In this document: positions 434 to 17,990 of the stretch, piece by piece
How the letters are laid out: the number at the start of each line of letters is the position of its first letter
How positions within the stretch are numbered: the stretch's first letter is position 1
DNA from: Alphaproteobacteria bacterium US3C007
Lineage (GTDB): Bacteria > Pseudomonadota > Alphaproteobacteria > Rhodobacterales > Rhodobacteraceae
Direction of reading: 5' to 3'
NCBI GenBank assembly: GCA_034423775.1
Contig: CP139918.1
Coordinates: 2,170,001-2,234,000 of the forward strand
DNA length: 64,000 nt
Program-made: the position numbers and the translations under genes
The notes under the pieces: generated by a model
Databases searched by the model: none
What the model saw: the letters and a program-made list of their open reading frames with translations, nothing else
What the model was told of the DNA's origin: nothing

Positions 434-1822
434 TTAGGCGTGAATGGCGCCATCGCCGCAAGCCAAAGCGGCCTCGCGTACCGCTTCTGAATACGTGGGA
501 TGGGCGTGGCAGGTTAACGCCAAATCTTCGGCGGACGCGCCAAATTCCATTGCAACGCAGATTTCATGAATCAAATCTCCGGCTGAGGGCCCTATTATAT
601 GCGCGCCCAAGATGCGATCGGTTTGCGCATCGGCCAATAGTTTGACAAAGCCATCTCCAGCAAAATTCGCCTTGGCCCGGCCATTGCCCATAAAGTTGAA
701 TTTTCCAACTTTATAAGCGCGGCCCTGCTCTTTCAGCTGTGCCTCGGTTTGGCCCACATTGGCAACTTCCGGATGCGTATAGATCACGCCTGGGATCACA
801 TCATAATTCACATGCCCATGCTTGCCTGCGATCACTTCGGCCGCGGCCATACCCTCATCCTCGGCTTTGTGCGCCAGCATTGGCCCATCAATCGCATCGC
901 CAATTGCATAGATGCCGGAAATATTGGTTTGCCAATGTGAATCGGTTTTGATCTGACCGCGCTCGCTGACCTCTATGCCAAGATCGGCCAAGCCCAACCC
1001 ATCCGTAAACGGCTTTCGCCCCGTTGCCACCAAGACAGTATCTGCGTCTATCTGGTGCGCGCTGTCATCTTTGCGCAACGTATAATTGACTTTGGCTTTG
1101 GTTTTAAGCTTTTCAACGCCGCTTACAGCTGCGCCCATGATAAATTTCAAGCCCTGCTTTTTCAGAATGCGCTGGAAGGTTTTTTGAACCTCTGCGTCCA
1201 TTCCCGGTGTGATCGCGTTTAAAAACTCTACCACGGTCACATCACTGCCCAGCCGCGCGTAAACAGATCCAAGCTCTAAGCCAATCACGCCCGCACCGAT
1301 CACCACAAGTTTTTTCGGGATCTTGGCCAAGCTTAAGGCCCCGGTTGAGCTGACCACGGTTTTTTCGTCGATCTCTATGCCGGGCAGGCTAGAGGGCGTG
1401 GAACCGCTGGCAATAATAATATCTTTCGCCTGATGACTTTCATCGCCGACTTTGACCACACCGGCCTCGGGAATGCTGCCCCAGCCTTTCAGCCAATCGA
1501 TTTTGTTCTTCTTGAAAAGAAATTCAATACCCTTGGTGTTGCCCTCAATCGTGTCGGTTTTATACGTTTGCATCTGCGACCAATCTACCGTTGGCGATTT
1601 GGCATTCAGGCCCATTTTTGCAAAATTATGTTCGGCTTCATGAAGCATATGTGACGCATGCAGCAGTGCTTTGGAAGGAATACAGCCCACATTGAGGCAG
1701 GTGCCGCCCAAGGTTTCCCGCCCTTCAACACAGGCTGTTTTCAGTCCCAGTTGAGCGCATCTGATCGCCGCAACATAGCCTCCGGGCCCGCTGCCAATCA
1801 CAATTACATCATAGCTCGCCAT
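434..1822 (-). CDS. lpdA: Dihydrolipoyl dehydrogenase (E3)
   Basis: FAD flavoprotein of 462 residues that reoxidises the dihydrolipoyl groups of 2-oxo acid dehydrogenases with NAD+. The N-terminal FAD site is GSGPGG (residues 10-15). The redox-active disulfide pair is C42 and C47 in [13 protein letters not shown] second Rossmann motif ([10 protein letters not shown], about residue 175) binds NAD, and the C-terminal HPTYSEA supplies the His-Glu pair near residue 441. It is the last gene of the sucCDAB-lpdA run, 66 bp after sucB, so it most likely serves the 2-oxoglutarate dehydrogenase complex. A separate pyruvate dehydrogenase E3 could exist elsewhere. Length is normal for the family. Confidence 0.95.
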
Positions 1823-1888: not shown

Positions 1889-3403
1889 CTAAAGATCCAT
1901 CAGCAAGCGCCGGGGATCTTCAAGCGCCTCCTTCACGCGGACTAAGAAGGTTACGGCGCCTTTACCATCCACGATCCGGTGGTCATAGCTGAGGGCCAGA
2001 TACATCATTGGCCGGATCACCACTTGGCCATTCACGGCGATGGGGCGGTCTTGAATTTTATGCATGCCCAGGATTCCCGATTGCGGGGGGTTCAAAATAG
2101 GTGAGGACATTAATGAACCATAAACTCCACCATTTGAAATCGTGAAAGTGCCGCCTTGCATTTCTTCCATGCTAAGCTTGCCGTCGCGGGCGCGCTGCCC
2201 TTTTTCGCTGATCGCTTGCTCGATGGCGGCAAAGCTCATCGCATCAACATCCCGAATCACGGGCACAACCAAGCCGGTTGGCGTGCCAGCCGCGATGCCC
2301 ATATGCACAAAGTTCTTATAAACTATATCGGTGCCATCTATTTCGGCATTGACTTCGGGAACCTCTTGCAAAGCGTGGCAGCAGGCTTTGGTGAAGAAAG
2401 ACATGAAGCCAAGTTTGACACCATGCTTCTTTAAAAACAGATCTTTATATTCTGATCTAAGATCCATCACGGCGCTCATATCGACTTCGTTATACGTTGT
2501 CAGCATGGCGGCCGAATTCTGGCTGTCTTTTAGGCGCCGTGCAATGGTTTGACGCAAGCGCGTCATTTTAACCCGCTCTTCACGCGCTGCATCGCTGGCC
2601 ATAACGGGGGCGCGCGGCGCGGCTGGTGTTTGAGCGGTTGCGGCTGGCGTGTGCGCGGCGGCGGCGACAGCCCGGGTTACATCTTCTTTCATTACCCGCC
2701 CATCGCGGCCGGTGCCTTGCACCGTGCTGGGCTTAAGACCCGCTTCGGCCATAGCTTTTTTTGCAGCCGGCGCATCTTCCACCGAGCTGGCTTTAGCCGT
2801 GCTTGGGGTGGCCTCTGGAACGGGCTGCGCTGCAGACGTGTTGCCTTCCCCCTCTGCCTGGCTGATCACGGCCAAAATGGCGGTTGCATCCACTGTGCTG
2901 CCTTCCGCGGCGATAATTTTTTTCAAAACCCCTGCGCTTGGCGATGGAACTTCCACGCTGACCTTATCGGTTTCCAGCTCGCAAAGGATTTCATCGCTTT
3001 TTACGTTATCACCTGGCGCTTTGAACCAACTGGCCACGGTGGCTTCGGTCACGCTTTCCCCCAAAGTTGGAACGGCAACCTCAATATCTGATGAATCTGC
3101 TGCCGCGTTTGACGGCGCTTTAGGGGCTGGGCTCTTGGCAGTATCCGAAGCCTCGCTACGGCCTGCGCCGCTGGCAATATTGGCCAGCAAAGCATCAACG
3201 CCGACCGTTGTGCCTTCTGCCGCAACGATTTCGCTAAGAACGCCTGCGGCCGGGCTCGGCACTTCGACGGTGACTTTATCGGTTTCCAACTCGCATAGCA
3301 TTTCGTCTAAAGCCACAACATCGCCTGGTTTTTTAAACCAGGTGGCCACCGTCGCTTCTGTGACAGATTCGCCCAAAGTCGGGACACGAATTTCCGTTGT
3401 CAT
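1889..3403 (-). CDS. sucB: 2-Oxoglutarate dehydrogenase E2, dihydrolipoyl succinyltransferase, with two lipoyl domains
   Basis: E2 core of the 2-oxoglutarate dehydrogenase complex; moves the succinyl group to CoA. 504 residues. Two tandem lipoyl domains (about 1-75 and 107-182) carry ELETDKV motifs with lipoylated lysines at K43 and K147. They are joined by Ala/Pro-rich linkers. A peripheral-subunit-binding domain lies at about 211-246, and the catalytic domain runs from about 275 to the end, with active-site H475 and D479 in DHRIVDG. E. coli SucB has a single lipoyl domain and is about 400 residues, so this is a longer, duplicated form, which I believe is usual in Rhodobacterales. It starts 3 bp after the sucA stop, which implies coupled expression. 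Confidence 0.95.
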
Positions 3404-3406
3404 TGG

Positions 3407-6370
3407 TTATTTCCCTTCGATCGTCAGCGCTTCATCGATAAGCGCGGCTTGTTGGAATTTATGCTGTGCGGCTAAACCGGTGGCCGGTGAAGCGCTGGCC
3501 GAGCGGCCCACATAGCGAAGACGGTTATGTTTTGCTTTCATGCGTTCGAGCACCCATTCCAAATTGGGCTCCATGAAGCTCCAACCACCCTGGTTCTTAG
3601 GTTCCTCCTGACACCAAATCATTTCGGCATTCTCAAAGCGCTGAAGTTCCTTCATTGCTGAGATGGCCGGAAACGGATAGAACTGTTCAAAGCGCATCAA
3701 GTAAATATCATCGAGACCGCGGGCATTTCGCTCTTCCAAAAGATCATAATAAACTTTGCCCGAACACATCACGACGCGTTTGATTTTGGCATCTGGTTTA
3801 AGCTTATGCGCCGAGCTGCTGGCTTCCGCATCATCCCAAAGTACCCGATGAAAGGATGAGCCAGTGGTGAATTCTTCGGCCTTTGAGACGGCTAATTTAT
3901 GCCGCAGCAATGATTTTGGCGTCATCAGAATTAATGGTTTGCGAAAGTTCCGGTGCAATTGGCGGCGCAAAATATGAAAGTAATTGGCGGGCGTGGTGCA
4001 ATTGGCGATGATCCAATTATCTTGCCCGCACATTTGCAAAAACCGTTCGAGCCGCGCAGAGCTATGTTCTGGCCCTTGACCCTCGAATCCATGGGGCAGC
4101 AACACCACCAGACCGGACATACGCAACCATTTGCTTTCACCAGAGCTGATGAATTGATCAAACATGATTTGCGCGCCATTTGCAAAATCGCCAAATTGGG
4201 CTTCCCAAAGCGTAAGGGCGTTGGGCTCGGCCAGCGAATAGCCATATTCAAACCCTAGAACGGCATATTCGGACAGCATCGAATCGATCACATCATACCG
4301 CTTTTGTCCGGTGCGAATATGATTGAGCGGGTAAAAGCGCTCTTCGGTATCTTGATTGATCAAGCCAGAATGGCGTTGGCTAAATGTGCCCCGGGTACAG
4401 TCTTGGCCGGACAAACGCACCGGAAAGCCTTCGCATAATAGAGATCCAAAGGCCAAGGCTTCGCCGGTGGCCCAATCGAAGCCTTCGCCGGCGGCGAACA
4501 TTTTCTTTTTGGTTTCAAGCATCCGGGCGACGGTTTTATGCAGCGGAAACCCATCTGGTGCGCGGCTCAATGCAGTGCCAATATCTGCCAGCGTTTGGGT
4601 CGAAATTGATGTTTCTCCGCGCTGATATTCTTCTCCGCGGCGATCCAAATGCGACCAGCGGCCATCCAGCCAATCGGCTTTATTGGGTTTATATTCTTTT
4701 CCCGCCTCAAACTCTTCGCTCATTTTGGCTTGGAAGGCAGCTTTCATATCTTCAACTTCGCCTTCGGGTATTAGCCCATCCTTGACCAACCGTTCGGTGT
4801 AAAGCGAAAGCGTGGTTTTTTGTCGCTTGATTTGATTATACATTAAAGGGTTTGTGAACATTGGTTCATCCCCCTCATTATGCCCAAATCGGCGATAGCA
4901 GAAGATGTCGATCACCACGTCTTTTTGGAATTTTTGGCGGAATTCCGTAGCCACTTTTGCCGCATGCACAACGGCTTCTGGATCGTCACCATTCACGTGG
5001 AATATAGGAGCTTCTACCATTAAGGCGATATCGGTCGGATAGGGCGATGAGCGGCTAAAATGAGGTGCTGTGGTAAACCCAATCTGGTTATTGACAACAA
5101 CATGGATTGTTCCGCCCGTGCGATGGCCCACCAATCCAGATAGCCCAAAACATTCCGCCACAACCCCTTGGCCGGCAAAGGCCGCATCGCCATGCAGCAA
5201 TAAGGGCAAAACCTGCGTGCGATCCGCATCGCCGATTTGATCTTGTTTGGCGCGCACTTTGCCAATTACAACCGGGTTAACAGCCTCTAAATGGCTGGGG
5301 TTTGCGGTTAGCGATAGATGCACGTTATTGCCGTCAAAATCACGGTCAGAGGATGCGCCGAGATGATATTTCACATCGCCAGAGCCGTCTACATCTTCTG
5401 GCTTGAACGAGCCGCCCTGAAATTCGTTGAAAATCGCCCGGTACGGTTTTTGCATCACATTTGCCAATACAGAAAGGCGGCCGCGATGCGGCATACCGAT
5501 CACAATGTCGCGCACCCCAAGCGCACCACCGCGCTTGATGATTTGCTCTAGCGCGGGGATCAGGCTTTCCCCGCCATCCAAGCCAAAGCGTTTGGTGCCG
5601 GTGTATTTCACGTGCAGAAATTTTTCAAACCCTTCGGCTTCAACCATCTTATTCAAGATGGCTTTACGCCCCTCACGGGTGAATGTGATCTCTTTATCGC
5701 GCCCCTCGATACGTTCTTTAAGCCATGAAGATTGCTCGGGGTCCGAAATATGCATGTATTGCAAAGCAAACGTGCTGCAATAGGTGCGTTTCAGAATATC
5801 GATGATTTGGCGCATGCTGGCAAATTGCAAGCCGAGCACATTATCAATAAAGATTGGCCGATCCATATCGGCCTCTTCAAAGCCATAAGATTTTGGCTGT
5901 AACTCAAGGTGCTGCCCGGTGGCTTGAAGTTTCAAAGGATCCAGATCTGCCGATAAATGCCCACGGATGCGGTGGGCTCGAATAATCATTAAGGCGCGGA
6001 TACTGTCTAAAACCGCACGTTTCACAGCCTCTTGGCTGATTGTACTGTTGAGCTCTTTGGCCTTTCCAAGGATTTTTTCCTTGGCGGCTGCGGCCTCTTG
6101 CGGCGGCGGCATCCATTCACCAGTGAGCGCGGCGGTTAGATCATCAGTCGGTTGAGGGGGCCAATCTTTGCGGGCCCAAGACGGGCCAGAGGCGTCTGCT
6201 TTGACGTCTAAATCCGAATCCCCCAACGCTTGGAAAAAGGCTTGCCAGGCGCCATCAACCGTATTGGGGTCACGGGCATATTGCGCGTAAAGCTGCTCAA
6301 GATACGCCGCGTTGTGCCCCTGCATGAAGGAAGAGGCGTGGAACTGTTCATTCGCAGACTGATCGGTCAT
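3407..6370 (-). CDS. sucA: 2-Oxoglutarate dehydrogenase E1 component
   Basis: Thiamine diphosphate-dependent E1 that decarboxylates 2-oxoglutarate and reductively succinylates the E2 lipoyl group. 987 residues. I chose the ATG at 6370 (MTDQSANEQF) because AGAGGA sits about 8 nt upstream; the open frame extends 8 codons further without a better signal. Seen: an N-terminal E2-binding helix (about 10-40, AYLEQLYAQYARDP), the ThDP-binding part including GDAAFAGQG and VVNNQIGFTT, the histidine-rich GMPHRGRL, and a transketolase-like C-terminal half. It sits between sucD (178 bp upstream) and sucB (3 bp downstream). The sucD-sucA gap holds a weak GCGGG/CCCGC hairpin at 6491-6507, which could modulate read-through. 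Confidence 0.95.
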   Translation of the reverse strand: MTDQSANEQFHASSFMQGHNAAYLEQLYAQYARDPNTVDGAWQAFFQALGDSDLDVKADASGPSWARKDWPPQPTDDLTAALTGEWMPPPQEAAAAKEKILGKAKELNSTISQEAVKRAVLDSIRALMIIRAHRIRGHLSADLDPLKLQATGQHLELQPKSYGFEEADMDRPIFIDNVLGLQFASMRQIIDILKRTYCSTFALQYMHISDPEQSSWLKERIEGRDKEITFTREGRKAILNKMVEAEGFEKFLHVKYTGTKRFGLDGGESLIPALEQIIKRGGALGVRDIVIGMPHRGRLSVLANVMQKPYRAIFNEFQGGSFKPEDVDGSGDVKYHLGASSDRDFDGNNVHLSLTANPSHLEAVNPVVIGKVRAKQDQIGDADRTQVLPLLLHGDAAFAGQGVVAECFGLSGLVGHRTGGTIHVVVNNQIGFTTAPHFSRSSPYPTDIALMVEAPIFHVNGDDPEAVVHAAKVATEFRQKFQKDVVIDIFCYRRFGHNEGDEPMFTNPLMYNQIKRQKTTLSLYTERLVKDGLIPEGEVEDMKAAFQAKMSEEFEAGKEYKPNKADWLDGRWSHLDRRGEEYQRGETSISTQTLADIGTALSRAPDGFPLHKTVARMLETKKKMFAAGEGFDWATGEALAFGSLLCEGFPVRLSGQDCTRGTFSQRHSGLINQDTEERFYPLNHIRTGQKRYDVIDSMLSEYAVLGFEYGYSLAEPNALTLWEAQFGDFANGAQIMFDQFISSGESKWLRMSGLVVLLPHGFEGQGPEHSSARLERFLQMCGQDNWIIANCTTPANYFHILRRQLHRNFRKPLILMTPKSLLRHKLAVSKAEEFTTGSSFHRVLWDDAEASSSAHKLKPDAKIKRVVMCSGKVYYDLLEERNARGLDDIYLMRFEQFYPFPAISAMKELQRFENAEMIWCQEEPKNQGGWSFMEPNLEWVLERMKAKHNRLRYVGRSASASPATGLAAQHKFQQAALIDEALTIEGK

Positions 6371-6548: not shown

Positions 6549-7430
6549 TTACCCGATGGCTTTAAGAACCGCTTCACCCAATCCGGCTGGGCTCTCTGCA
6601 ACCACGATGCCCGCAGCTTGCATAGCTTCGATTTTATCTTCCGCACCACCTTTGCCACCGGCAACAATGGCACCGGCATGACCCATGCGACGGCCCGGAG
6701 GGGCTGTGCGTCCGGCGATAAAGCCGGCCACGGGCTTGCTGCGCCCGCGTTTGGCCTCATCTCTTAAAAACTGCGCCGCTTCTTCTTCAGCGCTGCCACC
6801 AATTTCACCGATCATAATAATTGACTGCGTTTCCTCATCCGCCAAGAACCACTCAAGCGCATCGATATGCTCGGTGCCTTTGATTGGATCCCCACCGATG
6901 CCCACGCAGGTGGATTGACCCAAGCCAACATCTGATGTTTGCTTGACCGCTTCGTAGGTTAAAGTACCCGAGCGCGACACAACCCCGACGGATCCACGGC
7001 GGTGGATATGCCCGGGCATGATGCCAATCTTACAAGCATCAGGCGTGATTACACCGGGACAATTTGGCCCGATCAACACGGAATTACTGGTCTCTAAAGC
7101 CCGCTTTACTTGCATCATATCCAACACAGGGATGCCTTCTGTGATACAGACGATCAGTTCAATTTCGGCATCGAGTGCCTCTAAAATACTATCCGCAGCA
7201 AAGGGGGGTGGGACATAAATCACCGAGGCATTTGCTTGAGTAACGGCTTTGGCCTCATGCACCGAGTTGAACACAGGCAAATCAAGATGCACTTGGCCGC
7301 CTTTTCCGGGCGTAACGCCACCAACCATTTTAGTGCCATAGGCGATGGCTTGCTCGGAATGAAAAGTGCCTTGCGAGCCGGTAAACCCTTGACAGATCAC
7401 TTTGGTGTTTTCGTTTATGAGAATTGCCAT
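6549..7430 (-). CDS. sucD: Succinyl-CoA synthetase alpha subunit
   Basis: Alpha subunit of ADP/GDP-forming succinyl-CoA ligase, which makes succinate and a nucleoside triphosphate from succinyl-CoA. 293 residues, normal length. The N-terminal CoA-binding Rossmann domain has [10 protein letters not shown] (about 16-25). The phosphohistidine is in GHAGAIV (about H251), in the context [12 protein letters not shown]. The GPNCPG motif of the ligase domain is present near 125. The ATG at 7430 lies 3 bp after the sucC stop, so the two subunit genes are translationally coupled, as usual for a 1:1 complex. Confidence 0.96.
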
Positions 7431-7433
7431 GTC

Positions 7434-8627
7434 TTACCCCTTGACCGCCGTTACGATTTTTTCGGCACCGTCTTTTAGATTATCGGCCGCGATCACGTCC
7501 AATCCCGATGTGTTGATGATCTTTTTGCCTTGTTCGACATTGGTGCCTTCCAGTCGCACTACCAGAGGTACTGCCAACCCAACTTCCTTTACCGCGGCCA
7601 CAACCCCTTCGGCGATCACATCACAGCGCATAATACCCCCAAAAATGTTGACTAAAATGCCTTTGACATTTGGATCTGAGGTAATGATTTTAAAGGCCTC
7701 GGTGACTTTTTCTTTGGTGGCCCCGCCACCAACATCCAAGAAATTTGCTGGCTCGGCGCCATAAAGTTTGATAATATCCATCGTGGCCATCGCAAGGCCT
7801 GCGCCGTTGACCATGCAGCCAATTTCGCCGTCTAAAGCAATGTAGTTAAGATCGTATTTTGAAGCTTCGAGTTCTTTGGGGTCTTCCTCTGTGGTATCTC
7901 TGAGTTCGGCGATATCAGGGTGCCGGTAGACGGCATTGCCGTCGAACCCCATTTTTGCATCTAAACATTTCAGATCGCCGCCATCGGTCACGATCAGAGG
8001 GTTGATTTCCAACATCTCAACGTCTTTTTCGATGAATAGGCGATAAAGTGTGCCCATTAAGGCCACGCATTGTTTGATCTGTTTGCCCTCTAGGTTCAGC
8101 ATGAACGCAATTCTGCGGCCATGATAGGCTTGATATCCGGTCGCCGGATCAACCGAAAAAGACAGAATTTTTTCAGGCGTTTCGGCCGCAACCTCTTCAA
8201 TGTCCATGCCGCCCTCGGTCGAGCAAACGAACGACACGCGACTGGTCTGACGATCGACCAATAGGGCCAGATAGAGCTCACGCTCGATGCCCGAACCGTC
8301 TTCGATATAGATACGGTTGACTTGTTTGCCGGCGGGGCCGGTTTGGTGGGTCACCAAAGTACGGCCGAGCATTTTCTTGGCTTCTTCTGCTGCCTCGGTG
8401 GCCGATTTGGCCATGCGAACGCCGCCTTTTTCACCCGCATCAGCTTCCGTAAAATGGCCTTTGCCGCGGCCACCGGCGTGGATTTGCGCTTTTACAACCC
8501 AAAGGGGCCCATCCAGTTCACCCGCAGCGGTTTTGGCATCGTCTGCCTTGAGCACAAAGCGCCCTTCCGAGACCGGGGCGCCATAGCTGCGCAACAAGGC
8601 TTTCGCTTGATATTCATGAATATTCAT
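7434..8627 (-). CDS. sucC: Succinyl-CoA synthetase beta subunit
   Basis: Beta subunit of succinyl-CoA ligase, 397 residues. It begins with the canonical MNIHEYQAK and has an ATP-grasp fold: the glycine-rich [14 protein letters not shown] loop near 46-60 and the metal-binding EINPLIVT near 195-205. The C-terminal ligase domain has GGGATKEKV and [10 protein letters not shown]. It is the first gene of the sucCDAB-lpdA operon. Its own promoter region carries the paired palindromic operators at 8730-8768, and a terminator behind mdh separates it from mdh, so it probably starts an independent transcript. Confidence 0.96.
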
Positions 8628-8729
8628 CGAGTGTTCCTACATGACCCAAAGTTTGCGCCATTTAGTCGCATCAAGCGGACGGTTATAAGCTTTTTTTAAA
8701 AATTTTTATAGATTTTTACGTTTTTAGGT

Positions 8730-8768
8730 ATTTTGTGATCACAGATTTTATGGGTGTGATCACAAAAT
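8730..8768. promoter_or_regulatory. Paired TGTGATCACA palindromes in the sucC promoter region
   Basis: The 333-bp gap 8628-8960 holds no gene. It contains two copies of the perfect 10-bp palindrome TGTGATCACA (8734-8743 and 8755-8764), 21 bp centre to centre. With their flanks they form a 14-bp perfect inverted repeat (ATTTTGTGATCACA at 8730-8743 against 8755-8768). They lie 107-137 bp upstream of the sucC start in an A/T-rich stretch. The same pair with the same spacing precedes sdhC. Two helical turns between sites suggests cooperative binding of a dimeric regulator. The GT...AC symmetry recalls GntR-family operators, but that is inference. Confidence 0.75.
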
Positions 8769-8874
8769 AAAATATAGCGGCAGTTTGCTAGGGTTGCCCC
8801 AGCATATGGTGGTTTCAAGCTTGCGCGCAGCGGCCCACCTGCTGGGATAAACGATGGTTGCCCGGCTGAAAATA

Positions 8875-8906
8875 AAAAAGCACGCATGCGTGCATGCGTA
8901 CTTTTT
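8875..8906 (-). terminator. Intrinsic terminator downstream of mdh
   Basis: AAAAAG-C-ACGCATGC followed after 2 nt by GCATGCGT-A-CTTTTT. The long hairpin is perfect except for one C/A mismatch and ends in a T-run when read on the minus strand. It lies 55 bp after the mdh stop and separates mdh from the sucC operon. Confidence 0.8.
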
Positions 8907-8960
8907 CAGCGTGGTAAGAAGCCCCGACAGGCACGCGGGAGCGCGCCGGCGCAGATGTCT

Positions 8961-9959
<999 letters not shown>

Positions 9960-9990
9960 TTACTGCTTTCTGATTAAATTAGCAAGTGTG

Positions 9991-10020
9991 CTGCATTGCA
10001 GCGCAAATTGGCGTTTGCGC
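9991..10020. promoter_or_regulatory. Nested inverted repeats between mdh and the TSUP gene
   Basis: CTGC-ATT-GCAG (9991-10001) overlaps a second perfect repeat, GCGCAAA-N6-TTTGCGC (10001-10020). Both lie 68-97 bp upstream of mdh and about 105-130 bp upstream of the divergent TSUP start. The first fits the CTGC-N3-GCAG form reported for the PHB regulator PhaR of Paracoccus. Assignment to any regulator is inference. Confidence 0.5.
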
Positions 10021-10122
10021 TAAGCCTCTCGCAATAGGTTGAACCGTCCGTTTTTAGACCATAGGCTCTTTCGTATGCAAAGTGGTTTGCGCGGGCCCAT
10101 TTGATAAGAAAGATGGCTGTTT

Positions 10123-10869
10123 ATGGAGGCTTGGATGTTTGCCCTGATGGGGGGCGCTGTTTTGTTTGCGGGCATTTCTAAAAGTGGATTTGGTTCTAAG
10201 GTTGATTTCATAGGGGTCGTGATTTTGGCCGGATTGATGGATCCGGGAAAAGCCATCGGAGTGATGTTGCCGTTGCTGATGGTGATGGATCTGTCGAATC
10301 TGCGCGCCTATTGGTGGAAATGGTCGCGCGGCGATGCCCTTACCTTAATTCTTGGCGGCATTCCGGGGGTTATGCTAGGGGCGTTGTTTTTCACGCAGGT
10401 CAATCAACAGGTGCTGCAATTTCTGATTGGCCTGATCAGCCTTTTGTTTTTAAGCTGGTTTTGCGCCTCACGCCTATCGACGGTTTTGTCAAGAATGGGC
10501 CCATTTTCACGTGGGGTTGGGGGGCTTGCGGGTTTCGTCGCGGGGTTTACCAGCTTTGTCAGCCATGCTGGTGGTCCGGCAGCCGCGGTGTATCTTCTGT
10601 CGAAAAACATGTCCAAAACAGAATATCAAGCCACTACTGTTCTGGTATTCTGGGTGATCAATATTTTAAAAGGCGGCCTTTACGTGGGTTTGGGCTTGCT
10701 GAGCCGCGATACGCTCGTGCTTGATCTGATGCTCTTGCCCTTTGCGTTTTGCGGTGTTTGGCTGGGGTTGCAGGCGCATCGTAAAATACCTGAAAAAGCA
10801 TTTTTTGTGTTAATGTATGTTGCTTTGGCGGTTTCCGCTTTGCGCCTTATCTGGCTGTCTTTGGCTTAA
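10123..10869 (+). CDS. TSUP-family membrane transporter (TauE/SafE type)
   Basis: 248 residues with about eight hydrophobic segments and the repeated Gly-rich loops of the TauE/SafE/YfcA family. These include AGISKSGFGSKVDFIGVVIL near 18-37 and GGLAGFVAGFTSFVSHAGGP near 128-147, the two pseudo-symmetric halves. Family members export sulfite, sulfoacetate or related organosulfur anions; substrate cannot be read from sequence. It is divergent from mdh and the first plus-strand gene before mcl2, with 133 bp in between. The ATG at 10123 follows a weak purine stretch. A role in exporting sulfite from taurine or DMSP-derived sulfur would fit a marine roseobacter, but nothing nearby proves it. Confidence 0.8.
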   Translation: MEAWMFALMGGAVLFAGISKSGFGSKVDFIGVVILAGLMDPGKAIGVMLPLLMVMDLSNLRAYWWKWSRGDALTLILGGIPGVMLGALFFTQVNQQVLQFLIGLISLLFLSWFCASRLSTVLSRMGPFSRGVGGLAGFVAGFTSFVSHAGGPAAAVYLLSKNMSKTEYQATTVLVFWVINILKGGLYVGLGLLSRDTLVLDLMLLPFAFCGVWLGLQAHRKIPEKAFFVLMYVALAVSALRLIWLSLA

Positions 10870-11002
10870 GCCGCCCAGAACGCTTTGGCATCATGCGCGA
10901 TGGCGACTGGGCTGTGGCAATTCTTGCATAATAACGTTTTGGCCTTGAACTTTTCGGCAAGAGATGCGCATTGATTTCGTAATATTATTGCGGAAGCTTC
11001 TT

Positions 11003-11863
11003 ATGACCCTATCTCATCGCCCTCTTCGATCAGCGCTTTACATACCGGGCTCTAAGCCGCGGGCTTTGGAAAAAGCGCGAAACCTGCCCACTGATAGCAT
11101 TATTTTTGACCTTGAAGATGCCGTATCCGCTGAGTCGAAATCCGAGGCGCGCGTGATCCTGCGCGCAGCTTTGGCGCAAGGCGGCTATGGCGCGCGTTTG
11201 AAAATTGTTAGAATAAACGCTCTTAATACACCGTGGGGCGAAGCTGATCTTCAGGCTTTGGATGGGCTTGACGTTGATGCTGTGCTGCTGCCAAAAGTAA
11301 ATAGCGCAGGTGATTTGGATGCGCTGGCGAATGTGGTTGGAGCAAAATGGCCGCTTTGGGCGATGCTGGAAACCCCGTTGGGCATTTTGAACGCGGGCGA
11401 AATCGCGGCTCATCCACTGCTGCAGGCCTTGGTGGCCGGCACGAATGATTTGGCAAAAGACTTAAAGTGCCAACTCACGCTGACCCGAGACAGTTTGCAA
11501 ATGGCGCTGCAATCGCTTGTGCTTGCCGCGCGGGCGCATGATGTGGCTCTGTTGGACGGAGTGTATAATCAGTTTCAGGATGAAGAAGGGTTGATCGCGC
11601 AATGCAGGCAGGGCCGTTCTTTGGGCTTTGATGGCAAAACGCTGATTCATCCGGCGCAGTTAAGCACTGCAAATCGCTGTTTCGCGCCTTCTACGAATGA
11701 AATTGAATTGGCACAGCGCCAAATATCTGCTTTTGAGGAGGCAGAAGCCGCTGGACAGGGTGTTGCAGTGCTTGATGGAACGATCATCGAGAATCTGCAT
11801 ATCGAAACCGCGCGGAAAACCTTGGCAATGGCGCAGGCAATTGCTGCAATGCAGACGGAGTAA
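11003..11863 (+). CDS. mcl2: HpcH/HpaI-type (3S)-malyl-CoA thioesterase-like protein
   Basis: 286 residues of the CitE/malyl-CoA lyase superfamily. I start at the ATG at 11003 (MTLSHRPLRSALYIPG) because GGAAG lies 6-7 nt upstream; an in-frame ATG at 10964 adds 13 unlikely residues. Seen: the CoA-binding IPGSKPRALEKA, the Mg2+-binding FDLEDAVS, and a C-terminal DGKTLIHPAQ. It is shorter than the malyl-CoA/beta-methylmalyl-CoA lyase Mcl1 (about 318). The neighbourhood (mch two genes on, mdh/suc/sdh around it) matches that of Rhodobacter sphaeroides mcl2. Mcl2 hydrolyses malyl-CoA to malate and CoA at the end of the ethylmalonyl-CoA pathway. A lyase role cannot be excluded. Confidence 0.75.
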   Translation: MTLSHRPLRSALYIPGSKPRALEKARNLPTDSIIFDLEDAVSAESKSEARVILRAALAQGGYGARLKIVRINALNTPWGEADLQALDGLDVDAVLLPKVNSAGDLDALANVVGAKWPLWAMLETPLGILNAGEIAAHPLLQALVAGTNDLAKDLKCQLTLTRDSLQMALQSLVLAARAHDVALLDGVYNQFQDEEGLIAQCRQGRSLGFDGKTLIHPAQLSTANRCFAPSTNEIELAQRQISAFEEAEAAGQGVAVLDGTIIENLHIETARKTLAMAQAIAAMQTE

Positions 11864-11866
11864 AAA

Positions 11867-12421
11867 ATGGTTTTATTGATAGCGGGTGTTGTGCTGTGGT
11901 TCGCTGCGCATGGTTTTAAGCGTCTTGCCCCCGAACGGCGCAGTGCAATGGGCGAAAAAGGAAAAGCTCCGGTTGCAATTGGAATTGCGCTTGGATTGGT
12001 GTTGATGATTATCGGCTATCGGCAAGCGGCTTTTATCGAGATTTGGTCACCCCCTGAGTTTTTAATTCATATCAACAACCTGATCATGGTTGTGGCCGTG
12101 GCTGTGTTTGCGATGGCGCATACCAAAGGTCGGATGCGTGGCCGGATGCGCCATCCAATGTTGACCTCAGTGAAGATGTGGGCCGCGGCGCATTTGCTGG
12201 TAAATGGTGACTTGGCGTCCATCATTCTATTTGGCGGCATGTTGGGTTGGGCTGTCTGGACGGTGATTAAGATCAACCGCGCAGAGGAGTGGCAACGGCC
12301 CGAGCCCGGCGAAGATAAGCGCGATTGGAAATTTTTAGTGGTGACCGTGGTGACCTTTGCCGTGATGGTAGGTTTGCATTTATGGCTGGGCGTCTCGCCC
12401 TTTGGAGCCCGGGGTGCATGA
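11867..12421 (+). CDS. NnrU-like membrane protein
   Basis: 184 residues with about five to six hydrophobic segments (about 1-15, 35-52, 66-84, 100-135 including DLASIILFGGMLGWAVW, and 150-172). The conserved core HPMLTSVKMWAAAHLLVNGDL marks the NnrU family. NnrU was named for its place near nitric oxide reductase genes; in tetrapyrrole and carotenoid work a relative is the Z-carotene isomerase, where His residues bind heme. Here it begins 3 bp after mcl2 and overlaps the DUF1737 gene by 4 nt (ATGA), so it is part of the mcl2-mch operon. No denitrification genes are in the window. The function here is unknown. Confidence 0.8.
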   Translation: MVLLIAGVVLWFAAHGFKRLAPERRSAMGEKGKAPVAIGIALGLVLMIIGYRQAAFIEIWSPPEFLIHINNLIMVVAVAVFAMAHTKGRMRGRMRHPMLTSVKMWAAAHLLVNGDLASIILFGGMLGWAVWTVIKINRAEEWQRPEPGEDKRDWKFLVVTVVTFAVMVGLHLWLGVSPFGARGA

Positions 12422-12624
12422 CCCAATTATACCGATTGCTGACTGGTGAAGACGGATCTGCTTTTTGTCATAAAGTAACGTTGGCTCTTTCAAAAGGGTG
12501 GCGGCTTTATGGCGAGGCACAATATGTTTTTGACCCAGACAGCCAAAAAATGCGTTGCGCGCAGGCGGTGATAAAAGACAGCTTAAACACCTATGATCCT
12601 GATCGAGCGCTCGGAGAACAATGA
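12418..12624 (+). CDS. DUF1737-family small protein
   Basis: 68 residues starting at the ATG at 12418, which overlaps the stop of the preceding gene (ATGA). The core MTQLYRLLTGEDGSAFCHKV and LSKGWRLYGEAQYVFD matches the short DUF1737 domain, often seen as a free-standing soluble protein of about 60-75 residues. The function of the family is unknown. The TGA stop abuts the ATG of mch with no spacer, so it is tightly coupled on both sides to ethylmalonyl-CoA pathway genes. Confidence 0.72.
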   Translation: MTQLYRLLTGEDGSAFCHKVTLALSKGWRLYGEAQYVFDPDSQKMRCAQAVIKDSLNTYDPDRALGEQ

Positions 12625-13659
12625 ATGAGCAAATCGAATATTGGGCGCTTTTTTGAAGATTATTCATTTGGCGAGGTAATCGCGCACGCTGTTCCGCGCA
12701 CCCTCACCGAGGGAGAGCGCGCGCTCTATCATGCGCTTTATCCGGCGCGCCATGCATTGAATTCGTCAGATGAATTTGCCCGAAATTGCGGGTTGCCGCG
12801 GGCCCCTTTAGACGATTGGGCTGCGTTTCATATGGTGTTCGGCAAAACCGTACCGGATATTTCACTCAATGCAGTGGCGAATTTGGGCTATGCAGAAGGG
12901 CGTTGGTTGGCCCCGATCTTTACGGGTGATACCGTGCAGGCGGTGTCTGAAGTCATCGGGTTGAAAGAAAACACAAATGGAAAAACCGGCATCGTCTATC
13001 TACGCACGCGCGGGCTGAACCAGCATGGCGATATTGTTCTTGAATATGTGCGCTGGGCAATGCTGCGCAAAAGACAGACCAGTTCGCCCGCGCCAAGGGC
13101 TGTGCTGCCCGAATTGGCCGAGGCGGTAGATCCGGCGGATCTCTGCGTTCCAGAAGGGCTGGATTTTTCCAATTATGCGTTTGATCTTGCCGGAGAGCCG
13201 TATCGTTTGTCTGCGTATAAGCGCGGTGAAGTGATTGATCACGTTGACGCGATGACCATCGAAGAAGCCGAACATATGATGGCAACGCGGCTGTGGCAAA
13301 ACACCGCCAAAGTGCATTTTGATGTAACCAGCCGCGCCGATGGCAACCGCCTGATTTATGGCGGGCACGTAATTTCTTTGGCGCGGGCATTATCGTTTAA
13401 TGGCCTAGCCAATGCGCAAATGATTGTTGCCCTGAATAGCGGCGCGCATGCCAACCCTTGTTTTGCGGGCGATACCGTTTCGGCTTGGTCTGAAGTGCTT
13501 GACATAGCGCAAACCCGCGTGCCGGGTATCGGTGCCATTCGCTTGCGGTTGGTGGCGCAAAAAAACCAAGCGGGACCGGGGCCGCTGCGCGGAGAAGACC
13601 AACGCTACCTTCCCCATATTCTTCTTGATTTGGATTATTGGGCCTTGATACCCTCATAA
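12625..13659 (+). CDS. mch: Mesaconyl-CoA hydratase (beta-methylmalyl-CoA dehydratase)
   Basis: 344 residues with two MaoC-like hotdog regions: FFEDYSFGEVIAHAVPRTLTEGE in the first half, and HFDVTSRADGNRLIYGGHVISLARALSFNG in the second. That is the length and layout of Rhodobacter Mch. The enzyme hydrates mesaconyl-C1-CoA to (2R,3S)-beta-methylmalyl-CoA, which is then split to glyoxylate and propionyl-CoA. Its presence beside mcl2, with ccr and ecm 7-10 kb away, supports an ethylmalonyl-CoA pathway for acetyl-CoA assimilation. The ATG directly follows the stop of the DUF1737 gene. mcd (methylsuccinyl-CoA dehydrogenase) and mcl1 are not in the window. Confidence 0.88.
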   Translation: MSKSNIGRFFEDYSFGEVIAHAVPRTLTEGERALYHALYPARHALNSSDEFARNCGLPRAPLDDWAAFHMVFGKTVPDISLNAVANLGYAEGRWLAPIFTGDTVQAVSEVIGLKENTNGKTGIVYLRTRGLNQHGDIVLEYVRWAMLRKRQTSSPAPRAVLPELAEAVDPADLCVPEGLDFSNYAFDLAGEPYRLSAYKRGEVIDHVDAMTIEEAEHMMATRLWQNTAKVHFDVTSRADGNRLIYGGHVISLARALSFNGLANAQMIVALNSGAHANPCFAGDTVSAWSEVLDIAQTRVPGIGAIRLRLVAQKNQAGPGPLRGEDQRYLPHILLDLDYWALIPS

Positions 13660-13673
13660 CCAGAGGAGAGGCG

Positions 13674-14408
13674 ATGCGCATCACATTATTGGCCTTTTTG
13701 GTGCTTTTTGTGGGCGGGTTACGCCCTGCTTTTGGCCAGTCAAACGCCGAGAAAATCGCCGCGCGCGACGCCTATGTGTCTTCTAACATTGTATCCATTT
13801 TTTATCATGAGTTGGGGCATGCAATTATCGATAAGATGTCGGTGCCGATTTTCGGCCAAGAAGAAGATGCGGCGGATGTTTTATCCATTTTAATGATCGA
13901 TCAAGTTTATGATGAAGAATCAGCCCAAGATGTTGCGTATGATGCCGCGCTCGGTTTTTTAGCAGATGCAGAACAGGCGGAAGAATTGGCGTTTTGGGGG
14001 GTGCATGGGCTTGATGAGCAGCGATTTTATAATCTGATTTGTTTGTTCTATGGGGCCAACCCAGCCGATCGGATCTTTTTTGCCGACGATCTTGGGTTGC
14101 CAGAAGAACGCGCTGATAGCTGCCCTGAGGAATATGATCAGGCGATTGTAAGTTGGGGAGGGGTGTTGGATCAGATGGCCGCCCTGAAGGGAAAAATAAT
14201 ATTTGAGGGCCCTGTTGAAAGCTTGATTGGCCAAGTGTTGGCGGAAGAAATCACTTTTCTAAATGGGCAATTGGGCTTTCCTGTTGATTTTGAAGTGTTG
14301 ATAGAAACATGCGAGGAGGCTAATGCGTTTTACGATCCAGAAGCCGGTTCCGTGACGCTTTGCGCAGAATTTGAAACCTATTTAAGCCGGCAATATGAAA
14401 ACATGTGA
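13674..14408 (+). CDS. Secreted DUF4344-type putative metallopeptidase
   Basis: 244 residues starting at ATG 13674 after AGAGGAGAG. A signal peptide covers about residues 1-22 (hydrophobic LLAFLVLFVGGL, then PAFGQS), so the protein is exported. The motif YHELGHAIIDK near 44-54 is an HExxH zinc site. The following acidic EEDAADVLSILMID could give the third ligand. Two cysteines (LICLFYG and DSCPEEYD) may form a disulfide. This fits the DUF4344 family of putative metallopeptidases; no substrate is known. It lies between mch and sdhC, and its stop codon sits inside the first sdh operator palindrome. It may simply end the mcl2-mch operon. Confidence 0.75.
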   Translation: MRITLLAFLVLFVGGLRPAFGQSNAEKIAARDAYVSSNIVSIFYHELGHAIIDKMSVPIFGQEEDAADVLSILMIDQVYDEESAQDVAYDAALGFLADAEQAEELAFWGVHGLDEQRFYNLICLFYGANPADRIFFADDLGLPEERADSCPEEYDQAIVSWGGVLDQMAALKGKIIFEGPVESLIGQVLAEEITFLNGQLGFPVDFEVLIETCEEANAFYDPEAGSVTLCAEFETYLSRQYENM

Positions 14409-14434
14409 TCACAAATAAAAACTCTGTGATCACA
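14404..14434. promoter_or_regulatory. Paired TGTGATCACA palindromes upstream of sdhC
   Basis: Two perfect TGTGATCACA copies lie at 14404-14413 and 14425-14434, 21 bp centre to centre, 139-169 bp upstream of the sdhC start. The spacing is exactly that of the sucC pair. The first copy overlaps the TGA stop of the preceding gene. The 164-bp gap that follows contains no gene and must hold the sdh promoter. Confidence 0.75.
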
Positions 14435-14572
14435 ACCGCGCATTTCGCCAAGAGTCAGAAAAGAATATTGTTTCTGGGGCTGTTATTACTTTCAAATCAA
14501 GATAAAAGGATCCTATCGTATCGGCGAATAGCTGTGGAGGCTTCGCTTTTAAAAGATCGTAAGGGAATTTTA

Positions 14573-14956
14573 ATGGCTGATGTAAACCGGGGCAATCGCC
14601 CTTTGTCACCGCATTTATCTATTTATCGCCCGCAGCTGACTTCGATCACGTCAATCTTAACGCGGATCACGGGAAATGCTTTATTGCTGGGTACTATCAT
14701 GGTGATATGGTGGTTATTAGCGGCGGCAACTTCGCCGGCCTATTTTGAACTGGTCAACGGAGTTGTAACCTCCTGGTTTGGAAAATTAATCCTTTTAGGC
14801 TCGATCTGGGCGCTGTGGTACCACAGCTTGGCCGGTTTGCGGCATTTGATTTGGGACAACGCCATTGGCTTGGATGTGCCGACAGCCGAAAAACTTGGCT
14901 GGGGTGTTATCATAGGGTCGCTAGTGCTGAGCGTCATCACCATTGTGGTTTTATAA
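14573..14956 (+). CDS. sdhC: Succinate dehydrogenase cytochrome b556 subunit
   Basis: 127 residues; the start at 14573 (MADVNRGNRPLSPHLSIY) follows GGGA and removes 56 spurious upstream codons. Three transmembrane helices are visible (about 30-50, 63-83, 105-126). The signature SPHLSIYRPQLTSITSILTR at the N terminus and HSLAGLRHLIWD in the second helix identify SdhC. The first His of HSLAGLRH is the expected heme b ligand. It anchors the flavoprotein and iron-sulfur subunits and forms part of the ubiquinone site. First gene of sdhCDAB. Confidence 0.95.
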   Translation: MADVNRGNRPLSPHLSIYRPQLTSITSILTRITGNALLLGTIMVIWWLLAAATSPAYFELVNGVVTSWFGKLILLGSIWALWYHSLAGLRHLIWDNAIGLDVPTAEKLGWGVIIGSLVLSVITIVVL

Positions 14957-14971
14957 GGGCAAGAAACAGAT

Positions 14972-15343
14972 ATGCGTTATTTAACGGATCGCAAACGGGC
15001 CGTGGGCCTGGGAAGCGCCAAAACAGGCACCGCGCATTTTTGGGCCATGAAGGTGAGCTCTGCGGCGCTTTTGGTGCTGGTTCCCTTATTCGTCTGCACG
15101 CTGGGGCGTGTTATCGGTGAAAGCCATCAAGATGTGATTGCGCATTTTGCCCGGCCCGGCCCGGCCTTGGTTGTGGCGCTGACGCTGATTGTTGGTCTTG
15201 AGCATTTTAAGTCGGGCGCGCAGGTTTTAATTGAAGATTATGTCCATGGGACTGCACAGAAAATCTGGATCATCGCGGTTATTTGTATGTCCTATGCCTT
15301 GATGGCAACAGGGCTGTTCGCGATCGCTAAGATGGCACTTTAA
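14972..15343 (+). CDS. sdhD: Succinate dehydrogenase hydrophobic membrane anchor subunit
   Basis: 123 residues with three hydrophobic helices (about 25-45, 55-77, 93-120). EHFKSGAQVLIEDYVHG (about 72-88) holds the histidine and Asp-Tyr pair expected for heme and quinone binding in SdhD. It starts 15 bp after sdhC and ends 12 bp before sdhA, in the standard sdhCDAB order. Confidence 0.93.
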   Translation: MRYLTDRKRAVGLGSAKTGTAHFWAMKVSSAALLVLVPLFVCTLGRVIGESHQDVIAHFARPGPALVVALTLIVGLEHFKSGAQVLIEDYVHGTAQKIWIIAVICMSYALMATGLFAIAKMAL

Positions 15344-15355
15344 AGGGCGAAGGCA

Positions 15356-17161
15356 ATGTCAGAATATACGTTTGAAACCCATGAATATGATGTTGTTGTT
15401 GTTGGCGCCGGTGGCGCCGGCTTACGGGCAACCTTGGGCATGGCAGAGCAGGGGTTGCGCACCGCCTGCGTCACCAAAGTGTTTCCAACCCGCTCGCACA
15501 CGGTTGCCGCGCAAGGCGGGATCGCGGCCTCGCTCTCAAATATGGGCCCAGATCATTGGCAATGGCACATGTATGATACCGTGAAGGGATCAGATTGGCT
15601 TGGTGATACGGATGCGATGGAATATCTGGCGCGCGAAGCGCCGAAAGCTGTTTATGAGCTTGAGCATTATGGCGTGCCATTTTCGCGCACCGAAGAAGGT
15701 AAAATTTATCAGCGGCCATTTGGCGGGCATACCACTGAGTTTGGCGAAGGTCCGCCTGTACAGCGTACCTGCGCCGCAGCCGATCGAACGGGCCACGCGA
15801 TTTTGCACACGTTATATGGTCAATCGCTGAAGAATAACGCGGAATTTTATATCGAATATTTTGCCATCGATTTGGTTATGTCTGAAGATGGAGTGTGCAC
15901 CGGGGTTGTTTGTTGGAAGCTGGATGATGGCACGATGCATGTTTTCAATGCCAAAATGGTGGTCTTGGCCACGGGTGGCTACGGACGGGCTTATTTCAGC
16001 GCAACCTCTGCGCATACCTGCACTGGGGATGGTGGCGGCATGGTGGCGCGGGCTGGTTTGCCGCTACAGGATATGGAATTTGTTCAATTCCATCCGACGG
16101 GTATTTATGGATCCGGTTGTTTGATCACCGAGGGCGCGCGCGGCGAAGGTGGCTACTTGACCAATTCAGAGGGCGAGCGTTTCATGGAGCGCTACGCACC
16201 CCATTATAAAGATCTGGCGCCGCGCGATTACGTCAGTCGCTGCATGACGATGGAAATCCGCGAGGGGCGCGGCGTTGGCGCAGAGGGAGATCATATCCAC
16301 CTCAATTTGAGCCATTTGCCGCCCGAGGCTTTGGCCGAGCGCCTGCCCGGAATTTCGGAAAGCGCGCGGATTTTTGCTGGCGTTGATGTGACCAAGGAAG
16401 CCATTCCCGTTCTGCCCACCGTGCACTATAATATGGGCGGTATTCCGACCAACTATTGGGGGGAAGTTTTAAACCCAACGGCGGATAATCCAAACGCAGT
16501 GGTGCCCGGTCTTATGGCTGTGGGTGAAGCAGGCTGCGCATCCGTGCATGGTGCAAACCGCCTTGGCTCAAACTCTTTGATCGATCTAGTCGTGTTTGGG
16601 CGCGCGGCCGCGATCCGGGCTGGCCAAGTGGTAGATCGCGCGGCACAGATCCCCAATTTGAACACCGCTGAAATTGATAAGGCCTTTGACCGCTTCGATG
16701 GGTTACGTCACGCCAATGGCGCGGTGCCAACCGCTGAGCTGCGCCTTGAGATGCAAAAAACCATGCAATCAGATGCAGCCGTATTCCGCGCTTCGGACAC
16801 ATTGGCGGCAGGCTTCAGCAAAATGACCGATATCGCCGCAAAAATGGATGATATCAAAGTGACTGATACCAGCCTGGTGTGGAACAGCGATCTTATGGAA
16901 ACGCTTGAATTGGGCAATTTGATGCCCAATGCTTTGGCCACCATCGCTGGCGCCGAGGCGCGTAAAGAAAGCCGCGGCGCGCATGCCCATGAAGACTTTG
17001 GCGATCGAGATGATGAGTCTTGGCGGGTGCATACATTGGCGGTGATTGACGGCGCCAAATGCGACCTGAGCTATCGTCCGGTCGTGTTGGACCGCCTTAC
17101 TGATGAAGATCAGGGCGGCATATCGCTTGAGAGAATCGCGCCCAAAGTGCGTACGTTTTGA
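15356..17161 (+). CDS. sdhA: Succinate dehydrogenase flavoprotein subunit
   Basis: 601 residues, full length. It oxidises succinate to fumarate at a covalently bound FAD. The dinucleotide motif [11 protein letters not shown] lies at about 16-26. The FAD-linking histidine is H48 in SHTVAAQGG. Substrate-site motifs QFHPTGIYG and [11 protein letters not shown] are present, and the capping domain and C-terminal helical domain are complete. sdhA begins 12 bp after sdhD. The opening bases GGCGCCGGTGGCGCCGG form a local repeat that simply encodes the Gly-Ala loop. Confidence 0.97.
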
Positions 17162-17210: not shown

Positions 17211-17990
17211 ATGGTTCAGCTAACGCTTCCTAAGAATTCACGGATCCGCACTGGAAAAACCTGGCCAAAACCAGCAGGTGCAACCAATATCCGCAAATTT
17301 TCCGTCTATCGGTGGTCACCAGATGATGGAGAAAATCCCAGCGTTGATACTTATTTTGTGGATATGGATACATGTGGCCCGATGGTCTTGGACGCGCTGA
17401 TCAAAATCAAAAACGAAATTGATCCCACCTTGACCTTTCGCCGCTCGTGCCGGGAAGGTATTTGCGGGTCTTGCGCGATGAATATTGATGGTATCAACAC
17501 GCTGGCATGTATTTATGGCATGGATGAGATCAAGGGCGACGTGAAGATCTATCCCTTGCCCCATATGCCCGTTATTCGGGATTTGATCCCTGATCTAACG
17601 CATTTTTACGCCCAGCATGCCAGTATCATGCCTTGGCTGGAAACCAAAACCAACCGTCCGGCGAAAGAGTGGAAGCAATCGATCGAAGATCGCAAAAAAC
17701 TAGATGGGCTGTATGAATGCGTGATGTGCGCCTCTTGCTCAACCTCTTGCCCGTCTTATTGGTGGAATGGCGATCGCTATTTGGGGCCAGCTGCCTTGCT
17801 GCACGCCTATCGTTGGATCATTGATTCGCGCGATGAAGCCACCGGAGAGCGGTTGGATGAATTGGAAGACCCGTTTAAGCTCTATCGCTGTCATACGATC
17901 ATGAATTGCGCCAAAACCTGCCCCAAGGGGCTTAACCCGGCCAAGGCGATTTCAGAAATCAAAAAGATGATGGTCGAACGGACAGTTTAG
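17211..17990 (+). CDS. sdhB: Succinate dehydrogenase iron-sulfur subunit
   Basis: 259 residues. The N-terminal ferredoxin domain has the [2Fe-2S] cysteines in [16 protein letters not shown] (about 80-95). The C-terminal domain carries [16 protein letters not shown] and [14 protein letters not shown] for the [4Fe-4S] and [3Fe-4S] clusters. The tryptophans after SCPSY are expected at the quinone site. It passes electrons from SdhA to ubiquinone. It lies 49 bp after sdhA with no intervening gene and is the last gene of the operon by content. Confidence 0.97.

Follow-up and report, generated by a model that had tools for sequence, protein, structure and literature searches.

What binds the paired palindromes that stand before two TCA cycle operons in this stretch of DNA, and what is the pairing for? 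The window, by which we mean the whole stretch of 64,000 nucleotides analyzed here (C1:2170001-2234000), contains TGTGATCACA twice ahead of sucC and twice ahead of sdhC, and an earlier note, made from the letters alone, proposed that one dimeric and perhaps GntR-like regulator binds both pairs and co-controls the operons behind them. The comparisons described here indicate, at the level of sequence, that the element is genuine, recurs throughout the family, and very probably serves as an operator for a regulator that is already known, and that its phasing with the promoter is the part worth testing. What the earlier note lacked is that the system has already been described.

Results

Two operons with paired palindromes

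The genes concerned were taken from open reading frames (ORFs), and the palindromes were read from the sequence.

434..1822, minus strand: lpdA (ORF)
1889..3403, minus strand: sucB (ORF)
3407..6370, minus strand: sucA, 2-oxoglutarate dehydrogenase E1 (ORF; the listed start is a TTG, 6394, and an ATG, with MTDQ, is at 6370)
6549..7430, minus strand: sucD (ORF)
7434..8627, minus strand: sucC, succinyl-CoA synthetase beta, first gene of the suc operon (ORF, named from sequence)
8734..8743, no strand: palindrome TGTGATCACA, promoter-proximal copy before sucC (sequence)
8755..8764, no strand: palindrome TGTGATCACA, promoter-distal copy before sucC (sequence)
8961-9923, minus strand: mdh (ORF)
14404..14413, no strand: palindrome TGTGATCACA, distal copy before sdhC (sequence)
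14425..14434, no strand: palindrome TGTGATCACA, proximal copy before sdhC (sequence)
14573..14956, plus strand: sdhC, likely start ATGGCTGATG (sequence and ORF)
14972..15343, plus strand: sdhD (ORF)
15356..17161, plus strand: sdhA (ORF)
17211..17990, plus strand: sdhB (ORF)

Both pairs, at 8734-8764 before sucC and at 14404-14434 before sdhC, have the form TGTGATCACA-N11-TGTGATCACA, with an 11-bp spacer and centers 21 bp apart, exactly as the earlier note had read them. It had also called the pairs identical, which holds for the palindromes and the 11-bp spacing but not for the spacer sequences and the flanks. The outer flanks of the suc pair are TTT and AAA, matching most relatives, and those of the sdh pair are ACA and ACC, not TTT/AAA; among the relatives, the outer flanks are TT and AA at 65-88% per position, yet at 43% at one sdhC position. 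A terminator-like hairpin with a T-run lies on the mdh strand at 8880-8897, between mdh and the suc operator, and transcription of mdh therefore probably stops ahead of this operator.

Rarity of the pair

With up to one mismatch to the palindrome, the window holds 7 matches, compared with a mean of 1.24 and a maximum of 5 in 100 shuffles. A scan of the whole 3.62-Mb genome with the pair pattern, one of the checks proposed in the note, found exact pairs only before suc and sdh, and allowing up to 3 mismatches added a single place with 3 mismatches, inside an ORF at C1:977170. From base composition, about 8e-5 exact pairs with any spacer of 1 to 31 bp are expected per genome. The window shuffles, the genome scan, and the composition expectation led us to reject a chance origin of the pairs, in agreement with the note's judgment that they were unlikely to be accidental.

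The exact 10-mer itself is expected 1.9 to 3.1 times per genome from composition and occurs 7 times, 4 times in the pairs, once before a gene for a GntR/FCD protein, and twice inside ORFs. Given an expectation of 2 to 3, this count is not striking; what stands out is that four copies form pairs and where the fifth one lies. The suggestion that the palindrome might be equally common in random intergenic DNA was not borne out, as it is rare genome-wide and its other exact copies lie before the regulator gene or inside ORFs. A wider regulon was sought in the same genome with YGTGATCACR, which gave 25 sites, 5 of them core. Because the other 20 all fall inside ORF calls (for one, L303, the ORF continues beyond the end of the locus), no wider regulon was found by this search.

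Conservation and targets among relatives

A scan of public sequences with one genome per species listed at least 122 exact pairs in at least 119 loci. Among the 122 listed, 96 are before sucC, 23 before sdhC, and 1 before sucA, and 2 are at locus edges beside mdh, where sucC would come next. By sequence title, nearly all of these loci are from Rhodobacteraceae or Rhodobacterales, with L025, L028, L056, L084, and L102 titled otherwise or less precisely. The comparison of suc and sdh upstream regions that the note had called for thus found the pair present in relatives, not absent from them. When GTGATCAC-N12/13-GTGATCAC was sought across the class, it was found in 5 of 5 genomes of the family, compared with 2 of 380 other genomes. 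One of these two outside pairs (L310) is inside an ORF; the other (L309, G369) is directly before a GntR/FCD gene whose product is 29% identical to the candidate regulator introduced below, in a genome of another family.

Several of these loci deserve separate mention. The pair is carried by contigs titled Nocardioides marinus DP1N28-1 (L084) and Maritalea mobilis DP3N28-3 (L025). The former has the gene order sdh-mdh-suc and a sucC start 89% identical to that of the window, and its title is therefore likely wrong. In a metagenome-assembled genome (MAG; L100), the pair is directly before sucA with no sucCD between them, and sdhB follows lpdA. Locus L309 (G369:C189) has three palindromes, with GATC cores at 974, 994, and 1015 and thus with spacings of 20 and 21 bp; a third site stands 20 bp upstream of the pair, and the two-turn layout recurs here in front of the gene of a distant GntR relative.

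A candidate regulator with its own site

The genome has 18 matches to PF00392 (GntR DNA-binding), 16 of them above the cutoff, and none of the 18 lies inside the window, consistent with the statement in the note that no candidate regulator gene is present there. The fifth exact copy of TGTGATCACA, a single copy, starts 17 bp upstream of the ATG of the following gene.

G000:C1:1556019-1556666, outside the window and about 0.6 Mb from suc and sdh: candidate regulator, a GntR/FCD protein of 216 aa

This protein matches PF00392 with 49 bits and PF07729 (FCD) with 61.7 bits, and among proteins of solved structure, the closest to it in sequence is McbR (4p9f; E value, 7e-18). Among the 30 closest of the orthologue loci (198 genomes, own included), the exact palindrome is found just upstream of the gene in 27, TGTGATCACG, which has one mismatch, in 2, and no palindrome in 1; GTGATCAC is upstream of the regulator in 2 of 3 further family genomes. 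The single site at the start codon suggests that the regulator probably represses its own gene. An exact GTGATCAC within 600 bp upstream is present at none of six family loci that encode regulator paralogues (35 to 39% identity), compared with 5 of 12 loci for more distant homologues from outside the family (34 to 38% identity; L327, L328, L329, L332, and L340). On the strength of these five, GTGATCAC may be characteristic of a larger clade of GntR proteins that regulate their own genes. Of 28 genomes in which sucC was matched, at least 10 have the regulator gene on the sucC contig, at a distance of 8 to 12 kb from sucC.

Co-occurrence of pair and regulator

Pair and regulator were compared over 198 genomes of the family, one per genus. 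Genomes with a strong orthologue (E value below 1e-50) numbered 177, and the 21 without one, in which the best E value was above 1e-50 or no match was found, were listed by hand. An exact pair with a spacer of 1 to 31 bp is present in 119 of the 177 but in only 1 of the 21 (Fisher's p of about 2e-8, uncorrected for relatedness, so that such p values are guides only). Since regulator and pair are both inherited, counts over related genomes overstate the evidence; the set of pair loci and the one-per-genus set may also overlap, and relatives are not independent.

The sucC leaders were then read in 30 of the 58 genomes that have the regulator but no exact pair. All 28 loci that could be matched have a near pair with 1 to 3 mismatches and a spacer of 11 bp, or in three cases 10 bp, that starts 124 to 174 bp ahead of the sucC start codon. 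In regulator-less genomes, a near pair was found in 3 of 19 loci, all of them in draft assemblies, and one such genome (G157) retains a 5-mismatch remnant at the usual sucC position. Neither the 28 nor the 19 loci include second copies or paralogues of sucC (L214, L215, and L235-L240), and five suc loci whose start was outside the search pattern were read by position. For sdhC, 20 genomes were picked from the 177 and 10 from the 21; the pair is present in 17 of the 20 and in 0 of the 10, the three misses being G020 (none), G007 (5 mismatches), and G012 (one palindrome only). Conversely, among 25 genomes with an exact pair, 23 have a single strong regulator match and 2 (L028 and L042, both MAGs) have none. 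A pair without a strong match was also seen in G019 (exact) and in G096 and G114 (near), and all five of these genomes are drafts or MAGs. G193 has two strong copies of the regulator.

Spacing of the palindromes and phasing with the promoter

Among the 75 forward pairs listed, the spacer is 11 bp (centers 21 bp apart) in 63, 10 bp (20 bp) in 9, and 21 bp (31 bp) in 1; the remaining 2, with spacers of 5 and 17, belong to a cluster or coding repeat inside an ORF of G125. The sole three-turn spacing among the 75 is that of an exact pair in L267 (G136:C8:44500-50500; sites 2842 and 2873), which is at neither suc nor sdh but about 83 bp before an ORF for a TauE-like transporter.

In two sets of relatives, a -35-like block, [GA]TGAC, follows the sdh pair. 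Of the 23 loci in the first set, 22 have the block start at 46-47, 57-59, 68-69, or 78-79 bp, and of the 17 in the second, 16 have it at 35, 46, 56-59, or 67 bp; as the block was chosen by eye from the first set, it is the second alone that tests it. No [GA]TGAC hit was found in L087 and G001, and extra hits at 13 and 132 bp (L037 and L036) and at 160 and 146 bp (G011 and G023) were left out of the phasing sums. The five distance classes are about 11 bp apart, and random class shifts equaled this phasing in 0.17% of 20000 trials.

For suc, a promoter model was learned on 90 leaders of 104 to 112 bp, 73 of which fit best within 1 bp of zero offset, and was applied to 31 other leaders. Of the 31, 27 had a best offset that differed from a multiple of 11 by no more than 1 bp (chance, 3 in 11), and 18 of these 27 had an offset other than zero. 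All 21 leaders whose score was reached by no more than 5 of 50 shuffles were on this series. The other 10 fits were weak; six of them were on the series, and four (L211, L104, L023, and L085) were not. In a few leaders, such as L027, the second-best offset was nearly equal. In the relatives, the distance from operator to promoter steps by whole helical turns at both suc and sdh, as in class-I-type activation.

Applied to the window, the columns conserved in relatives mark out one region.

8660..8689, minus strand: tentative suc core promoter region (-35/-10-like block)

It lies about 44 to 73 bp past the operator and is weak in this genome; consensus scans of the window gave no promoter on the suc or sdh strand and none at 8660..8689, and the window's own sdh leader is without the [GA]TGAC block of the relatives. 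A generic sigma-70 score averaged 9.42 for 96 suc leaders, compared with 9.65 for shuffled ones, and 9.97 for 23 sdh leaders, compared with 9.15. Since the suc leaders score below the shuffled ones, this generic score missed the suc promoter.

Discussion

Very probably, a single FadR-type GntR regulator, itself probably the orthologue of AkgR of Rhodobacter sphaeroides, uses each of the pairs as a double operator. Sequence comparison shows the pair and the operons it precedes, the constancy of its spacing, the tendency of pair and regulator gene to occur together, and the single palindrome before the regulator gene, and this reading draws on all of these. The earlier proposal of a GntR-like regulator common to suc and sdh gains support from the palindrome of the GntR/FCD gene itself, the co-occurrence, and the apparent fit with AkgR. 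Work by Imam from 2015 reportedly equates AkgR with RSP_0981 and makes it a direct activator of TCA genes. In R. sphaeroides, the predicted targets of the GntR regulator RSP_0981 are suc, sdh, and 2-oxoglutarate dehydrogenase (PMC4344238), and PMC6365646 gives GTGATCAC among the AkgR sites and terms AkgR a transcriptional activator. The system described here shares with the AkgR regulon the GntR family, GTGATCAC in the operator, and operators before suc and sdh; it differs in that the regulator gene is 0.6 Mb from the operons. Orthology of the candidate regulator to RSP_0981 is likely in view of the single strong match in 23 of the 25 pair-bearing genomes. Counted against it is that the numbering of RSP_0981 suggests a position past sdh, whereas in Rhodobacter ruber, the regulator is found 1.3 kb past lpdA. 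The regulator and its motif are already known, and the pairs in the window are an instance of a described system. What may be new is the geometry, with palindromes 20, 21, and once 31 bp apart combined with whole-turn promoter distances; no description of a paired, phased layout was found in a literature search that covered a minority of the papers, the original AkgR paper not being among them.

Other readers of the palindromes were weighed against this regulator. The CRP consensus is TGTGA-N6-TCACA, and a CRP/FNR-type regulator would account for the letters TGTGA and TCACA, which are those of CRP half-sites. However, CRP half-sites are 6 bp apart and those here 0 bp apart, 29 of the 30 orthologue loci carry the palindrome, with no more than one mismatch, ahead of the GntR gene, and according to PMC4344238, R. 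sphaeroides is not predicted to have a CRP analogue, so that binding by such a protein is extremely improbable. Binding by another regulator with the same targets, be it CceR, which is of the LacI type, or a GntR paralogue with 35 to 39% identity, is very unlikely, if less so than binding by CRP. In R. sphaeroides, the predicted targets of CceR (RSP_1663) include mdh and sdh, but the motif predicted for RSP_1663 in the same source (PMC4344238), GTT N6-8 AAC, is unlike TGTGATCACA, and the exact GTGATCAC present at the orthologues of the candidate is upstream in 0 of 6 family paralogue loci. Just as hard to credit as CRP is that the pair acts as RNA, with the two palindromes pairing as a hairpin, terminator, or leader structure. 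Although a consensus scan called the sdh pair terminator-like on the minus strand, no likely minus-strand gene runs toward it, mdh has its separate terminator-like hairpin at 8880-8897, no Rfam match was found within 8400-15000, and the single palindrome of the regulator gene cannot form a two-palindrome hairpin. In the relatives, conserved promoter-like blocks are downstream of the pair, which places it probably outside the suc and sdh transcripts.

There is also the question of the sign of control. GntR proteins are mostly known as repressors, and on this general ground the regulator could repress suc and sdh rather than activate them. This is unlikely, as the pair in relatives ends 35 to 79 bp upstream of the -35-like block with the phase kept, and AkgR is named a transcriptional activator in PMC6365646. 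Under the double-operator reading, one regulator dimer would occupy each palindrome, and the fixed spacing suggests that the two dimers, two turns apart on the same face of the DNA, would aid each other's binding. The bound dimers would activate RNA polymerase at a downstream promoter on that same face, and sucCDAB-lpdA and sdhCDAB would rise together in response to the regulator's ligand, which may be 2-oxoglutarate or a dicarboxylate. We infer two cooperating dimers that touch RNA polymerase from the two-turn spacing, the rare three-turn variant, and the whole-turn steps at two unrelated operons. The stricter claim that the double palindrome is a composite activator unit, with cooperative dimers, that shifts from its promoter only by full turns has, in our estimation, even chances of being correct; the distances between unit and promoter are about 35, 46, 57, 68, and 79 bp at sdh and mainly 35 and 46 bp at suc.

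If this holds, the lower TCA cycle would be activated throughout the family by a FadR-type GntR protein that works as a class-I activator in helical phase with the promoter, which would be useful to know because most GntR proteins are known as repressors; a distant GntR relative would have the two-turn spacing in front of its own gene as well. In Rhodobacteraceae, one switch would join 2-oxoglutarate dehydrogenase, succinyl-CoA synthetase, and succinate dehydrogenase. The work also names a likely regulator gene for this genome and offers a natural spacing series for tests of the activation mechanism. In E. coli, CRP class-I activator sites upstream of the -35 element work at distances that step by whole helical turns, and the distances seen here are alike in this respect. 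CRP is nevertheless of an unrelated protein family with a different site, and here two dimer sites seem to form one unit.

Within the GntR proteins, double sites at a constant distance have been described for FadR-subfamily divergons and read as cooperative control (PMC4494728), whereas the pairs here serve operons away from the regulator gene. The same source gives a gap between GT and AC of 3 or 2 nt for FadR-type sites and of 4 nt for most HutC-type sites; the gap here is 4 nt and so departs from the FadR-subfamily value. PS417_07240, a GntR-like protein of Pseudomonas simiae stated to be 32% identical to AkgR, has the same 8-bp palindrome, GTGATCAC, before its own start codon, and its proposed target is a deoxyribonate cluster, not the TCA cycle (PMC6365646).
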